Origin: an uncultured Sphingobium sp.
GTDB lineage: Bacteria > Pseudomonadota > Alphaproteobacteria > Sphingomonadales > Sphingomonadaceae
Assembly: GCA_913773715.1 (NCBI GenBank)
Contig: CAJYHD010000183.1
Span: 1 to 11,127, forward strand
DNA: 11,127 nt
Direction of reading: 5' to 3'
The stretch's first letter is position 1. Each line of letters begins with the position of its first letter. Below, one piece after another: positions 5,495 through 11,127 of the stretch. The notes beneath the pieces were generated by a model that was not told the origin of the DNA, ran no database searches, and saw only the letters and a program-made list of their open reading frames with translations. Made by a program: the position numbers and the translations under genes.

Positions 5495-6595
5495 TCAGAA
5501 CTTGGCGCGCACGCCGAAATTGAGGCTGCGACCGAAGGTGTGGATTTCGCTGACCTCGCGCTGGGTGCCGGCGAAGGAAACCTGTCGCTGGTCCAGCAGG
5601 TTGACCGCCTGCATGAACAGCTCGACATTGGGGCGCAGCTTGAAGCTGGCGCCAAGGTCGACGATGCCGAAGGGCAGCTTGTTGGTATAGCCGAATTCGA
5701 TACCCGAAATGGCGGCATCGCCGACATTGGTGGGCGTCGCAACCAGCACGTCAACGGGCAGCGTGCTGCCGTCGCGGACGGCCAAGGCAAGCCTGCGTGT
5801 TTCGAAGTCCGACGCGAAATGGTCGCTGATATCCTTGTGGAAGGCGGCAACGGTCAGCGTGCTGAACTGCTTGAAATACCATTCGAGCGACATGTCGAAA
5901 TTCCACTACGTATAGGGTCGCAGGTTGGGATTACCTGCCGACGCGGTCAGGATGATCGACGGATCGGCCAGCGCTGCCGCACCTTCGTTGAACATGCTCG
6001 TTACGGTAGAACTGTTCGTGTTGATCGAGTTGCGCAGTTCCGAAAGTGACGGCCGCGTCATCGTTCGAGCGACGCCCAGACGCAGCTGGACATTGTCGGT
6101 GAACTTGAACGTCGCGTTGGCGCTGGGCAAAAACTCGCCATAGCGCGCCTCGGTGGTCACTGGCGTTACCTGCGTCGTCACCTTGCCCGCCGCATCCGTA
6201 ACCGGCGCGATCGTGGTGCCGTCGACATCGGTGTTCGTGCGGACGTAGCGCAGTCCGAAATTGCCCGTCACGGGGACTTCGCCGACCGTCGCCTCGGAAA
6301 TCGACCCGGCCATAGGCGGCCAGGATTTTCTCGCCGATGCGGTAGCTGTTTTGAAGATCTGCTGCCGTTGGCTTGAGGTCGTACGCACTCGGATTAACGC
6401 CGTCATATTCCGCGCCCAACGTGTAGGCTTGATTAAACAAGGCCCAATCGACGTTGGTCCATGGCTGGCGGTTGACGACTGGTCAAAAGTGTTTGACGGC
6501 ACGGGGTAGCCCAAGAACGCTCCGGTCCGCTGCTCGCCACTGCGCAGCACGGCGGCATTGCGATCGCGCCGCTGATAATCGCGCGATCGCAAAAC
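5495..6595 (-). pseudogene. Decayed TonB-dependent receptor (Caulobacter/Xanthomonas-type), 5'-truncated
   Basis: Barrel half of a TonB-dependent receptor, broken in several ways. The readable segments are: YQRRDRNAAVLRSGEQRTGA (frame A, about 6580-6490); RQPWTNVDWALFNQAYTLGA through to AAYGRVDF (frame B, about 6485-6310); SEATVGEVPVTGNFGLRYVR to NPNLRPYT (frame A); then, after an in-frame TAG at 5908-5906, WNFDMSLEWYFKQFSTLTVA to the terminal GVRAKF. The two frame changes fit a 1-nt and a 2-nt deletion that compensate each other. Near the C-terminus ISGIEFGYTNKLPF runs almost directly into GIVDLGASFKLRPNVELFMQ, where relatives have roughly 100 more residues. The signal peptide, TonB box, plug and first strands are absent. 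The fragment follows the fucosidase gene, and such a receptor would usually import its oligosaccharide products. Confidence 0.85.
6558..6592. repeat. 12-bp perfect inverted repeat with GCGATCGC in each arm
   Basis: TTGCGATCGCGC (6558-6569) and its exact reverse complement (6581-6592) surround an 11-nt loop. No T-run follows on either strand. It sits at the truncated 5' edge of the receptor pseudogene, so it may mark a rearrangement point or be part of the old coding sequence. Confidence 0.5.
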
Positions 6596-6672: not shown

Positions 6673-8361
6673 TCAAACGCCGTTACGATCGCCCAGGCTT
6701 CCCTGCGTCAGGCCTTGTCCCGACAGGATAAGCGCTACGCCGATGCGATTGCGTGAGGCAGGAGGAAGGTCCACTTCCAGCGCGGTATCGGTGCGGCGGA
6801 ACGTCAGCGGTTCGCTTTGACCCGGCAGCGTGATGCGGCTGATCTCGCCACGACCGATCGGATTGTTGCGGCTCCACAGCGTCAGGCGCGCAACATTGTC
6901 TTCCGGCCAGCCAAGGACCAGCGCATGGACATCGTCGCCCCGCCGGACATAGCGCAGGTCGGCAGCGGTATAGCGCGTTTCCGGCCCGCCCTCGGCGAAC
7001 ATGCCTGCATTGGGCTGCGTCGGTCCTTCGCCGTGGATGCGCCACGGACGCGTGTCGTAGATCGCGCTGCCATAGCGGCCCATCCAGGTCCCGATCTCCT
7101 GCACGATGGCTTCGGCTTTCTCGTCGATGGTGCCGTCGCCGCGCATCGGTACGCTCAGCAGCAGGTTGCCATTCTTTGATACGATATCGGACAGGGTGTG
7201 GATAATGTTGGGCGCCGTCTTGTACCCGTTGCGCTCGTACAGTGCGCGGTCATAGTGCCAGTTGCCGAGGCACGTACAGGTTTGCCACGGATAGATTTCG
7301 ATCATCGACTTGCCGCCGCGCTCGACATCCTCGATCACGCCCATGCGGCGTTCCGCCGGCAGCATCTTGACGTTGATCACGCCCTCGTTCCTGCCGCCGT
7401 GCCACGCCATGTTGGCGTTGTAATAATGCGCAGCGATATCCAGCCCATATTGCTGGAGCGGCAGATCGAAATTGTCGAAATAGATGAGGTCGGGTTTGTA
7501 GACGTCGATCAGTTCGCGACAACGAAGCGCCCAGTTGCGCGCGAATTCGGAATTGTTGGCGGGCAATCCTTCGCTCCACAGGCGGTCGGTCCGTTCGTGG
7601 ATGGCATTCATTTCGACAAGTGTCGTGACGCCGTCGGGCATGGGAATGTTGCGGCCGGTATAAAGCTGCTGCGGATCGAGGCCGTTCCACCATTTGCCGC
7701 GACCGCCCGCTTTGTTCAGGTTCCACGCATCATAGCGCTTGCCCTGCATCGGCCCTTCGGCGTCATAGCCATAGGCGGACTGGAACCAGTGCCAGGCATG
7801 GGCGCTGTGGTTCGATACGCCGAAGCGCACGCCCTTGGCTCGGGCGAGCTTTTCCCAGGTGCCGACTATATCCTTCTTCGGACCCACGCGCGTCGTGTTC
7901 CACGGATGATGGGAGGAAGCATAGGCGTCGAGATTGTCGTGATGGTTGGCGAGTGCGACGAAATATTTGGCGCCGGCGCGAATGTAGAGTTCGATCAGCC
8001 GTTCGGGGTCCCAGCGCTCGGCCTTCCACATATTTTCGATTTCCATGAAACCGACATTGCTGGGATGCCCATATTTGCGAATATGCGCCTTGTTGGCGCG
8101 CGTACCCTGAAGATACATGTCGCGGGCGTACCAATCGCCTTCTTCCGGTACGCACTGCGCGCTCCAGTGCGCCCAGATGCCAAACTTGGCATCACGATAC
8201 CATTCGGGCGCGCTGTAATGACTGGTCAAGGACTTCCAGTCAGGCGTGAAGGGACCGGCAGCGGCGGGGGATGATGCCTGCCGTGCGCTTGCTGCGCCGG
8301 GGGCCAGTGCGCCCATACTTGCCGACAATCCCATCAGGCCCAAGGCGTCGCGGCGGTTCAT
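6673..8361 (-). CDS. GH29 alpha-L-fucosidase, probably Tat-exported
   Basis: 562 residues. The N-terminus MNRRDALGLMGLSASMGALA to about residue 28 is a twin-arginine-type signal, so the enzyme is probably periplasmic. GH29 features follow in order: FGIWAHW (60-66), EGDWYARDMY (74-83), NHHDNLDAY (139-147), DLIYFDNFD (291-299; Asp296 is the predicted nucleophile), PWQTCTCLGNWHY (358-370) and GNLLLSVP with IGTWMGRYGSAIYDTRPW (398-440). A beta-rich C-terminal part follows. The family removes terminal alpha-L-fucose from glycans. The acid/base residue cannot be assigned with confidence. The 8361 ATG begins the signal peptide, with GGAGAG about 12 nt upstream. An in-frame ATG at 8409 lies inside the preceding receptor remnant and is rejected. 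Reading frame and motifs look intact, unlike the neighbouring receptors. Confidence 0.92.
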   Translation of the reverse strand: MNRRDALGLMGLSASMGALAPGAASARQASSPAAAGPFTPDWKSLTSHYSAPEWYRDAKFGIWAHWSAQCVPEEGDWYARDMYLQGTRANKAHIRKYGHPSNVGFMEIENMWKAERWDPERLIELYIRAGAKYFVALANHHDNLDAYASSHHPWNTTRVGPKKDIVGTWEKLARAKGVRFGVSNHSAHAWHWFQSAYGYDAEGPMQGKRYDAWNLNKAGGRGKWWNGLDPQQLYTGRNIPMPDGVTTLVEMNAIHERTDRLWSEGLPANNSEFARNWALRCRELIDVYKPDLIYFDNFDLPLQQYGLDIAAHYYNANMAWHGGRNEGVINVKMLPAERRMGVIEDVERGGKSMIEIYPWQTCTCLGNWHYDRALYERNGYKTAPNIIHTLSDIVSKNGNLLLSVPMRGDGTIDEKAEAIVQEIGTWMGRYGSAIYDTRPWRIHGEGPTQPNAGMFAEGGPETRYTAADLRYVRRGDDVHALVLGWPEDNVARLTLWSRNNPIGRGEISRITLPGQSEPLTFRRTDTALEVDLPPASRNRIGVALILSGQGLTQGSLGDRNGV

Positions 8362-8398
8362 AGTCAAGATCGTCTCTCCGTCTGTTGGATGGGCGCCA

Positions 8399-8779
8399 GA
8401 AGCTGACATGCACGCCAGCAGTAATGCGGCAACCGATCAGATTATAGGTCTTGAGCAGTCCGAAGCTGTTTTCCGTCTTCTGCACCGCATCTAGCAGGTT
8501 GTTGACATCGGCACTGATCGAAATCGCCTTGCTGATCTGATAGCTGATCGGACCATCGAGCTGATCATCGGCCGGCGTGATGTCACCATCGCCGAAGATG
8601 CCGCTACTGCCCGAATAGCTGCTGCGGAAATTGTAGCTGTCACGAATACTGAAGCCGTTCTTCTCGAAATAGGCGCCTGCATTATAGTTGAACTTAGAAA
8701 CGCCATCCAGCGTCGCAGCGGGGCCGCCCTGAAAATTTTCCGTATGAAGCTGCTCGACCGTCGATCGGTAGGGCAGCAT
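8399..8779 (-). pseudogene. C-terminal remnant of a TonB-dependent receptor
   Basis: About 127 residues matching only the last barrel strands of a TonB-dependent receptor: GVSKFNYNAGAYFEKNGFSI, then DQLDGPISYQISKAISISAD and the terminal RITAGVHVSF. A normal receptor would stop after that last Phe. Here the next codon is TGG (8398-8396), one base from TGA, and the frame runs on to 8240 inside the fucosidase gene in another frame. The receptor-like sequence begins abruptly near 8745, with no plug, signal or first strands. The ATG at 8779 has no evident Shine-Dalgarno. It differs from the pseudogene at 5495-6595: both keep a C-terminus, so they derive from two receptors. It lies between nagX and the fucosidase and could matter only as transcribed spacer. 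Confidence 0.82.
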
Positions 8780-8853: not shown

Positions 8854-9987
8854 TTAGGCTTTGAGGATGAGCCTCTTCCTGTCCATCCACCAGCCGACCG
8901 CCCAGCACAACATTGTGTAGGTCACGGCGCACAACAACGAGCCGATTGCGCCGGGGACGATCCGCTGGAACACAGCTATTCCAACCCAGTCATAGACACC
9001 TTCGCCGGAGACGATGACGAACTGGTTGAGCGCAACCACGAACAGTTCGGAGAAAAGGTAGATGGCCAGTGGATTGCGGCCGAGAATCGTGAAGAAACGT
9101 ACGCCTTTACGGATGCCAGCCAGCTCGAACAGGATGATGACGCAGCCCAGCGCAATGCAATCGATGCCAATCGTCAGCAAGACATAGGAACTGGTCCAGA
9201 GCTTCTTCGCGATCGGAAACCAAGGCGACCAAGCGAGACCTGCGATGACGAGCGCGATGCCCACCACCATGATCTCGCGCACCGCCTTTTGGAGGCTGGC
9301 GCGCTTCTGCACGACAAGGCCGACGATGTAGCCGCCCAGCACGTTGACGATCGCGGGCAGGGTGCCGAGAAGGCCCTCGGGATCGAACCCATGATCCTTT
9401 TTGTAGAGATGGTCGGGGCCGAGCAGCCACAGGTCGAGATGGGTCCCGATATTGCCAAACTTGTCATAAGCCATGCCCGGAGCGGACAGCGTGAGCAGGA
9501 TGGCCCAATAGCCGAGCAGGAGGGCGATCCCTGCCAGCACGATCTGGCGCGGATTGAGCCAACGGACCATCAGCCCTGCGGCAAAATAGCAGAGTGCAAG
9601 CCGTTGCAGCACGCCAGGAATGCGCGTCACCGAAAAGGGGATCGGCTCCCACCCCGCGCTCGTGTGCGTGACGAATGGGAACCAGGACATGAGGAAGCCG
9701 AGCAGGAAGATGATCGCCGCGCGCCGAGCCAAACGTCCGACATAGGTCCGGTTCGAAAGCTGTGCGCGAGATGCAAAGCTCATCGCATTGCCCATGGCGA
9801 AGAGGAAGCTCGGAAAGATCGCGTCGGCCAGTGTGAAGCCGAACCATGGAGTATGAACAAGCTGCGTGAAAGGCTTAGCCCCGGCGCCCGCCGTGTTGAC
9901 GACGATCATCAGGAAAATGGTGATGCCCCGAAAGATGTCGAGCGCGACGAAACGCCGCCGGGGCGCGATACCGGGGGCGTCGCTCAT
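8854..9987 (-). CDS. nagX: NagX-like membrane acyltransferase (DUF5009 / HGSNAT-like, COG4299)
   Basis: 377-residue polytopic membrane protein with about ten hydrophobic segments. Family signatures are RFVALDIFRGITIFLMIVVN (12-31), DAIFPSFLFAMGNAMSF (55-71), RIPGVLQRLALCY (122-134) and NPLAIYLFSELF (305-316). The family includes human lysosomal heparan-alpha-glucosaminide N-acetyltransferase and bacterial NagX, which is found in N-acetylglucosamine regulons of Xanthomonas and related bacteria. A role in moving or acetylating amino sugars at the inner membrane is inferred. The start at 9987 overlaps the GH89 stop as ATGA, which argues for translational coupling. The frame is open further upstream to 10209, but that stretch is antisense-like, Arg-rich shadow inside GH89. 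In human lysosomes the homologous enzyme works beside NAGLU, a GH89 enzyme, so the pairing is notable. Confidence 0.88.
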   Translation of the reverse strand: MSDAPGIAPRRRFVALDIFRGITIFLMIVVNTAGAGAKPFTQLVHTPWFGFTLADAIFPSFLFAMGNAMSFASRAQLSNRTYVGRLARRAAIIFLLGFLMSWFPFVTHTSAGWEPIPFSVTRIPGVLQRLALCYFAAGLMVRWLNPRQIVLAGIALLLGYWAILLTLSAPGMAYDKFGNIGTHLDLWLLGPDHLYKKDHGFDPEGLLGTLPAIVNVLGGYIVGLVVQKRASLQKAVREIMVVGIALVIAGLAWSPWFPIAKKLWTSSYVLLTIGIDCIALGCVIILFELAGIRKGVRFFTILGRNPLAIYLFSELFVVALNQFVIVSGEGVYDWVGIAVFQRIVPGAIGSLLCAVTYTMLCWAVGWWMDRKRLILKA

Positions 9988-11126
9988 GTGTCGGCGTCCA
10001 CGAGCAGCGCGCGTACGGCGTCGAGCGGCGCGGCCGGGCGTTGCCGAGGCCAGGTTTTGCCATCCTTGATCCAGCCTTGCTCCCAGTTCTTGATCGCAGT
10101 CATCGTCGCAGCTTGATCTAGCGGGCGGCGGGCTGTTGCCGCTGCGCGCTGGGCGCCGAGGAACATCGTCCAGCGTGGCAGATAATAGCCCGCGTAAAGA
10201 CCCTGCCATGCGCGCGACGCATAGTCTGACAAATTGCCTTCGCCACCCCAGACCGTGACGACGGCCTTGGCTTGCTCTTCGAACTCAGCCTTTTCGGCGG
10301 GCGTATCACCATAGGCGCGCGCATCGCCGATCCAGCTGCCCAGCGTTTCCTGCTGGTTGCCGATCAGAGCATCGATTCCTTGCGCCAACCGGGTGACGGT
10401 TGCGGCGGCTGCATCACCTGCGGCCACGTCGCCACGGGCATAGGCCGCGATCGCGGCGCGCAGCTTGTCGTCGAGCCGTAGCGTAGCATAGTGGCGCGCG
10501 AAATCGACCACGTCGTAGATGTAGAGCGGCTGCGATTTCACCGCTTCGACCGATAACAGGCCGTCGAGTGCCTCGCGCAACGCCTTCATGTCGCCGGGCG
10601 GCGTGGGATAATGTTGGCCGTCAACCGTAGGTCGCTTGAAGAACAGATAGGCCCCTGCTTTCTCCTCCCACCAGCGTGGCGTCCAGTATTTCGTGCTGTA
10701 CACGCCTGTATTGGCGCGGCTCCACGCATCGATCAGAGCTGGCGACGCGTCACCGTAGCGGGCGGTCAGATACTGCGCCATCCAGTCTTTCAGCGGTCGC
10801 CGCAGCGTGTCGCCCCAAGCGAGGTCATAGGCATATTGATAGACGACCGAGTTGCTGTTCAGTCCTTCCGGGAACAGGCCGAACGCCTTCAGGTCGCCAT
10901 GCGCGGGATCGTCGACCACGGTGGCGAGATCGGAGCGATAGAAATCGAGATCGCCATAGACCGGATTGCTGCCGCCATAATTATGAACATAGCCATAGGC
11001 CCAGTTCTTGCCGTCGAACGCCTTTGTGTACCGCCATGCTCCCGGATAGCGATCGCCGCGTTCCTGAGCAAGGTGCCGAACGATAAGATGTTCCTGCTCG
11101 ACATCGGCAATGATCGCTATCCGGGA
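9984..11126 (-). CDS. GH89 alpha-N-acetylglucosaminidase (NAGLU-like), C-terminal part, disrupted at window edge
   Basis: Removes terminal alpha-linked N-acetylglucosamine from glycans. Convincing GH89 sequence runs from DRYPGAWRYTKAFDGKNWAY (from about 11054) through YVHNYGGSNPVYGDLDFYRS and FGLFPEGLNSNSVVYQYAYD to the stop at 9984, about 356 residues, where full proteins have over 700. The Glu of FPEG (codon about 10868-10866) aligns by family knowledge with a catalytic carboxylate (human NAGLU APEG). The C-terminal helical domain is complete. The frame stays open to the right edge, but residues beyond 11054 do not look like GH89. The plus strand there encodes AFLSKVPNDKMFLLDIGNDR, the expected preceding residues, so the gene is inverted or misassembled at this point. 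The stop overlaps the nagX start by 4 nt. The N-terminal signal and first catalytic Glu lie outside. Confidence 0.87.
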   Translation of the reverse strand, partial: SRIAIIADVEQEHLIVRHLAQERGDRYPGAWRYTKAFDGKNWAYGYVHNYGGSNPVYGDLDFYRSDLATVVDDPAHGDLKAFGLFPEGLNSNSVVYQYAYDLAWGDTLRRPLKDWMAQYLTARYGDASPALIDAWSRANTGVYSTKYWTPRWWEEKAGAYLFFKRPTVDGQHYPTPPGDMKALREALDGLLSVEAVKSQPLYIYDVVDFARHYATLRLDDKLRAAIAAYARGDVAAGDAAAATVTRLAQGIDALIGNQQETLGSWIGDARAYGDTPAEKAEFEEQAKAVVTVWGGEGNLSDYASRAWQGLYAGYYLPRWTMFLGAQRAAATARRPLDQAATMTAIKNWEQGWIKDGKTWPRQRPAAPLDAVRALLVDADT

Positions 11127-11127
11127 G
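11039..11127. repeat. 16-bp perfect inverted repeat enclosing an inverted GH89 segment
   Basis: CTCCCGGATAGCGATC (11039-11054) and its exact reverse complement (11112-11127) flank 57 bp. Read on the plus strand, this 57-bp segment and the right arm encode AFLSKVPNDKMFLLDIGNDRYPG, which joins perfectly to AWRYTKAFDG read on the minus strand from the left arm. Turning the inner 57 bp around gives a continuous open GH89 frame. The repeat ends exactly at the last base of the window. Confidence 0.8.

Follow-up and report, generated by a model that had tools for sequence, protein, structure and literature searches.

An apparent invertible segment at the end of a GH89 gene fragment is most likely a foldback chimera

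The window analysed here, a whole stretch of 11,127 nt, closes on what looks like a small inversion within a GH89 (NAGLU) gene. This apparent inversion is most likely an artefact and not a genuine feature of the genome, the last 73 bases most likely folding back on the gene to give its other strand. Judging from sequence comparison, we put at about 93% the probability that the sequence end is a foldback (inverted) chimera produced in sequencing or assembly, and that it represents no genetic switch. The features concerned are these:

9984-11054, minus strand: GH89 (NAGLU) gene, C-terminal 356 codons, with Pfam matches; native and collinear with homologues
11039-11054, minus strand: arm 1, native GH89 codons DRYPG(A), with DRYPG also present in Sphingomonas-type relatives
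11049-11054, no strand: probable switch point, microhomology GCGATC, 13/35 relatives having GCGATC immediately before the segment and GATCGC over the DR codons
11055-11127, plus strand: putative foldback tail, 73 nt of GH89 sense strand joined in reverse, translating to AAFLSKVPNDKMFLLDIGNDRYPG
11112-11127, plus strand: arm 2, opposite-strand second copy of the DRYPGA codons, reaching the last base

The two arms (CTCCCGGATAGCGATC at 11039-11054 and GATCGCTATCCGGGAG at 11112-11127) are 16 nt long, 100% complementary and separated by a spacer of 57 nt, and the second stops at 11127, just as the first-pass annotation had described. The repeat is more than chance would supply, since other perfect, non-overlapping inverted 14-mers no more than 400 nt apart occur at a single further place in the window (1976/2002). 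The odd length of the window, together with genes cut at both of its ends, suggests that position 11127 is a contig end, and an arm finishing on the last base fits a foldback cut off at such an end.

On the minus strand the GH89 frame matches NAGLU_C (PF12972, 5.4e-53) and the NAGLU TIM-barrel (PF05089, 1.3e-15), both above curated cut-offs; the second match covers profile positions 259-335 of 336, and the N-terminal part of GH89 falls beyond the window. An NCBIfam search of the same frame returned no family at E 0.001. The closest whole-genome matches of the protein are 72% and 70% identical, in genomes that share a genus group with those of loci L001 and L002 (Sphingomonas sp. Leaf339 and BT553). 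Past 11054, translation of the minus frame gives SRIAIIADVEQEHLIVRHLAQERG, as against AAFLSKVPDDRM..LDIGN in relatives, and it is the plus strand of 11055-11127 whose translation corresponds to the stretch that, in homologues, immediately precedes and includes DRYPG. This comparison bears out the earlier statement that GH89 similarity is lost at 11054 and that the next upstream residues are encoded on the opposite strand. Past the junction, the sequence follows the complementary strand of this GH89 locus: at the nucleotide level the tail is 55-84% identical to the collinear stretch in 35 relatives, and the 57 nt in inverted orientation reach at most 33%.

Relatives were drawn from one scan of genome contigs, which supplied seven, and from whole-genome searches that matched 5/5 genomes already known to be positive, 5/397 genomes of a family sample and 36/201 of a genus sample, six of these last 36 not being retrieved as loci. 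This left 38 non-duplicate loci (L006-L043), 35 of them measured by motif; the three that the motif missed (L010-L012) are Asticcacaulis places duplicating L003-L005 and are collinear by eye. The 57-nt segment stands in native orientation in 35/35 measured loci. The six residues that precede it in these loci are W (35/35), T/S/E, P/R/S/K, D/E/P, A/S and I/V, with T or S at the second position in 34/35, P, R or S at the third in 34/35, and D or E at the fourth in 33/35. A looser motif fits 20 of 50 homologous proteins, 18 with W and two with G at the first position, none with R at position 3 and none with I at position 4. The upstream and DRYPG sites are complementary to each other over 0 nt in five loci, 2 nt in 13, 3 nt in two, 5 nt in two and 6 nt in 13; the run exceeds 6 nt in none of the 35, so the native flanking repeats that would mark an inverton are absent from these relatives. 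GCGATC and GATCGC are present at both sites in 13/35 and a shorter run in 22/35. With no run longer than 6 nt, the most that relatives naturally possess is GCGATC and, 57 nt away, GATCGC; a 16-nt repeat is lacking. The first-pass annotation had named AGCGATC as the homology at which templates might have switched; this comparison reduces it to the 6 nt of GCGATC, a figure derived from the relatives.

A true switch would consist of the 57-bp segment being flipped by a recombinase between its 16-bp inverted repeats, toggling GH89 between a functional state and a scrambled one, and the perfect 16-nt arms, the in-frame loop of 19 codons and the open frame in either orientation are all features that such an element could have. 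Inverting the segment does yield a stop-free frame, as originally reported, but the implied contrast does not hold, since ORF 9984-11126 runs without a stop before its terminal one as the sequence stands; the supposed 'off' form would therefore leave 19 residues scrambled while translation carried on.

What separates the two readings is the sequence beyond the microhomology. An inversion between natural 6-nt arms predicts that GATCGC is followed by the antisense of the W-T-P-D codons, whereas the bases that follow it in the window, TATCCGGGAG, are sense DRYPGA, so that the mirror copy extends past the microhomology into sequence already read. Scored over these 10 bases against the 35 relatives, the foldback prediction gives a mean of 6.9 matches, with at least 7 in 29/35, 6/10 in four relatives and, in the two Bacteroidetes-type loci, 3 (L007) and 1 (L006); the inversion prediction gives 0-4 matches in 35/35, with a mean of 2.3. 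Taken as upstream coding sequence, arm 1 would read C-S-R-I-A-I, as against W-T-P-D-A-I in most relatives. The ancestral gene of an invertible segment would accordingly require C-S-R-I where W comes first in 35/35, and the position of its I is occupied by D, E or P in 35/35; it also needs the rare codon ATA, which accounts for 3/2735 codons in six window genes. Because the bases past GATCGC are sense, because the two predictions score as they do and because C-S-R-I-A-I is unlikely, the 16-nt repeat is best read as one stretch of the gene read once per strand. Its arm is 16 nt long because the sequence ends there, and arm length is thus set by where the sequence stops.

Several further observations weigh against a switch. 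Neither a second arm nor the inverted form was found in any of the 35 measured relatives (0/35), and among the relatives' loci examined only collinear forms were seen, with none in the second orientation that an inverton would show. A Pfam scan of nine window ORFs, from 42 listed with at least 90 residues, gave no recombinase, and a repeat terminating on the last base would be left as a coincidence. The suggestion that an invertible switch fits the data is therefore contradicted by the missing second arm in relatives and the sense bases past GATCGC, and we give it almost no credence; the alternative raised alongside it, a foldback chimera at a contig end with an artefact as the likelier cause, is supported by the sense tail and the collinear relatives.

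A foldback chimera of this kind could arise as follows. A DNA strand running antisense through the GH89 gene would end, or be displaced, at ...GCGATC (11054); its end would then anneal, by about 6 nt, to a GATCGC lying 57 nt further along a second copy of that antisense strand, and extension from the paired GATCGC would copy the sense strand (11055-11127) back across sequence already present. Candidate settings are whole-genome amplification, library end repair or creation by the assembler. Precedents are on record: Lasken and Stockwell describe 406 of 475 chimeras from multiple displacement amplification (MDA; 85%) as inverted, with priming through 2-21 complementary nt in more than 70% of junctions (PMC1855051). 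Chimeric reads from sonication libraries are described in another study as carrying the stretch between natural inverted repeats in reversed form (PMC10908179), and amplification palindromes have been described in long reads in a third (PMC6218980). A limited literature search for de Bruijn assemblies with foldbacks at their contig ends turned up no on-point title, which is not proof of absence; work on foldbacks in long reads does exist.

Two more specific origins were considered and set aside. The tail and the microhomology together make 79 nt (73 + 6), which is a default k of one assembler; this equality was deemed a coincidence, and a k-mer origin was given no weight. A hairpin telomere is expected to leave a mirrored copy whose loop is either native or missing, and was rejected on geometry, the 57-nt loop being reversed here.

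The same strand switch may also be imagined in the living cell, as a real genomic inverted duplication by template switching that broke and mirrored the GH89 gene. A switch at GCGATC in vivo would presumably look identical over these 89 bases, and the window alone would not discriminate between the two. The gene neighbourhood bears on this alternative, and comprises:

8854-9993, minus strand: HGSNAT/NagX-like membrane acetyltransferase (Pfam PF07786; NCBIfam NagX at 151.6 bits, below the cut-off of 480)
5495-6592 and 8240-8779, minus strand: TonB-dependent receptor remnants, pieces of TIGR01782 with N-terminal parts missing

An HGSNAT/NagX-like gene comes after GH89 in 9/9 neighbourhoods (those of L001 and L002, plus seven picked from the retrieved genomes), and in 4/9 this HGSNAT-like gene is directly followed by a GH29 gene. 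The human lysosomal namesakes, NAGLU and HGSNAT, work successively on heparan sulfate. Given this gene order, the locus looks like an ordinary glycan-use cluster whose native GH89 should extend past the window. The gene should run on collinearly beyond 11054 with no invertible segment, and on the minus strand it would be expected to continue through the AAFLSKVPNDKMFLLDIGN codons and then through W-T-P-D-like codons.

An in-frame stop, located between 5893 and 5906, interrupts the first of the TonB remnants (5495-6592), and the second (8240-8779) overlaps the beginning of the GH29 gene; nothing comparable lies between the two genes in the four relatives in which GH29 directly follows HGSNAT. 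At the other side of the window, 859-1974 on the minus strand is a single frame in which a PhoU-like (DUF47) domain comes after a NUDIX domain; its protein finds its best full-length match at 73% identity among 201 genomes sampled from one genus, and partial ones at up to 76%, among the matches listed. The frame beside it, which runs off the left end, is presumably that of a phosphate transporter.

An inverted duplication in the genome would have to sit next to an HGSNAT-like gene that is intact and positioned as in 9/9 relatives' neighbourhoods, although the TonB receptor remnants are signs of nearby decay and temper this argument. Against it are also its absence from all 38 relatives' loci and a mirror copy that halts exactly at the sequence end. 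We regard such a duplication as very unlikely. The same slim chance attaches to its biological corollary, that a switch at GCGATC in a Sphingomonas-like bacterium left a mirrored GH89 and an enzyme disrupted in part of the population.

The frequency of such structures at other contig ends was gauged on six viral-contig scans (IMG/VR), from which 181 whole contigs (362 ends) were hand-picked among the stretches listed, about 80 of 120 per scan; two scans with phage proteins (1 and 0 loci) were left out, and some IMG/VR records may be excised proviruses, with ends that no assembly produced. As an internal control, 50 random positions in each of the first 129 contigs were treated in one direction as pseudo-ends (6450 in all). 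A terminal perfect inverted repeat with arms of at least 12 nt was present at 2/362 ends as against 0/6450 pseudo-ends (Fisher p 0.003, pseudo-ends within a contig being non-independent). Among the ends of other and partial stretches (702 + 368) no arm was longer than 9 nt, and when the criterion was relaxed to 14 nt with a single mismatch, 1432 control-locus ends yielded L440 and one partial stretch, L569. Within the window itself, 12/21454 pseudo-ends reach at least 12 nt, the repeat studied here included. Terminal foldbacks thus appear uncommon, yet enriched at contig ends.

The two positive ends were L440 (17-nt arms, loop of 56) and L532 (13-nt arms, loop of 0). L440 is a public contig terminating in a clear foldback (10178-10267) whose loop has the native orientation, the final arm alone being foreign to its gene. 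The native loop is indicated by an alignment to a mycobacteriophage protein and makes L440 the simpler snap-back kind, with a geometry other than that of the window; for the same reason its arm plus loop of 73 nt is taken to equal the tail length by coincidence. L532 is a 26-nt palindrome and may be of natural origin. With a native loop in one and a palindrome in the other, the control ends showed no second example of the window's exact geometry.

The case carries a caution for annotation. When a gene contains a perfect inverted repeat and the second arm stops at the final base of a contig, the picture is that of a truncated foldback; the present case, if real, would be an intragenic rearrangement of a glycan-degrading enzyme. 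To tell foldback from inversion, one can ask whether the sequence past the microhomology continues the gene in sense or is antisense to the upstream codons.

Among known systems, invertons and other phase-variable inversions (PMC11892184) likewise consist of a short segment between inverted repeats; here, unlike there, the repeat is absent in relatives, the scanned ORFs included no recombinase, and one of the arms sits at the end of the sequence. The inverted chimeras of MDA (PMC1855051) offer a parallel in that a second segment is inverted, the junction, here presumably, involves a few complementary nucleotides and both segments come from one neighbourhood, although in our case there is a single junction, at a sequence end. 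Chimeras of the PDSM model (PMC10908179) are low-frequency calls in human sequencing libraries rather than an assembled contig end, but they share with the window the succession of original strand and then complement, with the stretch between short inverted repeats reversed.
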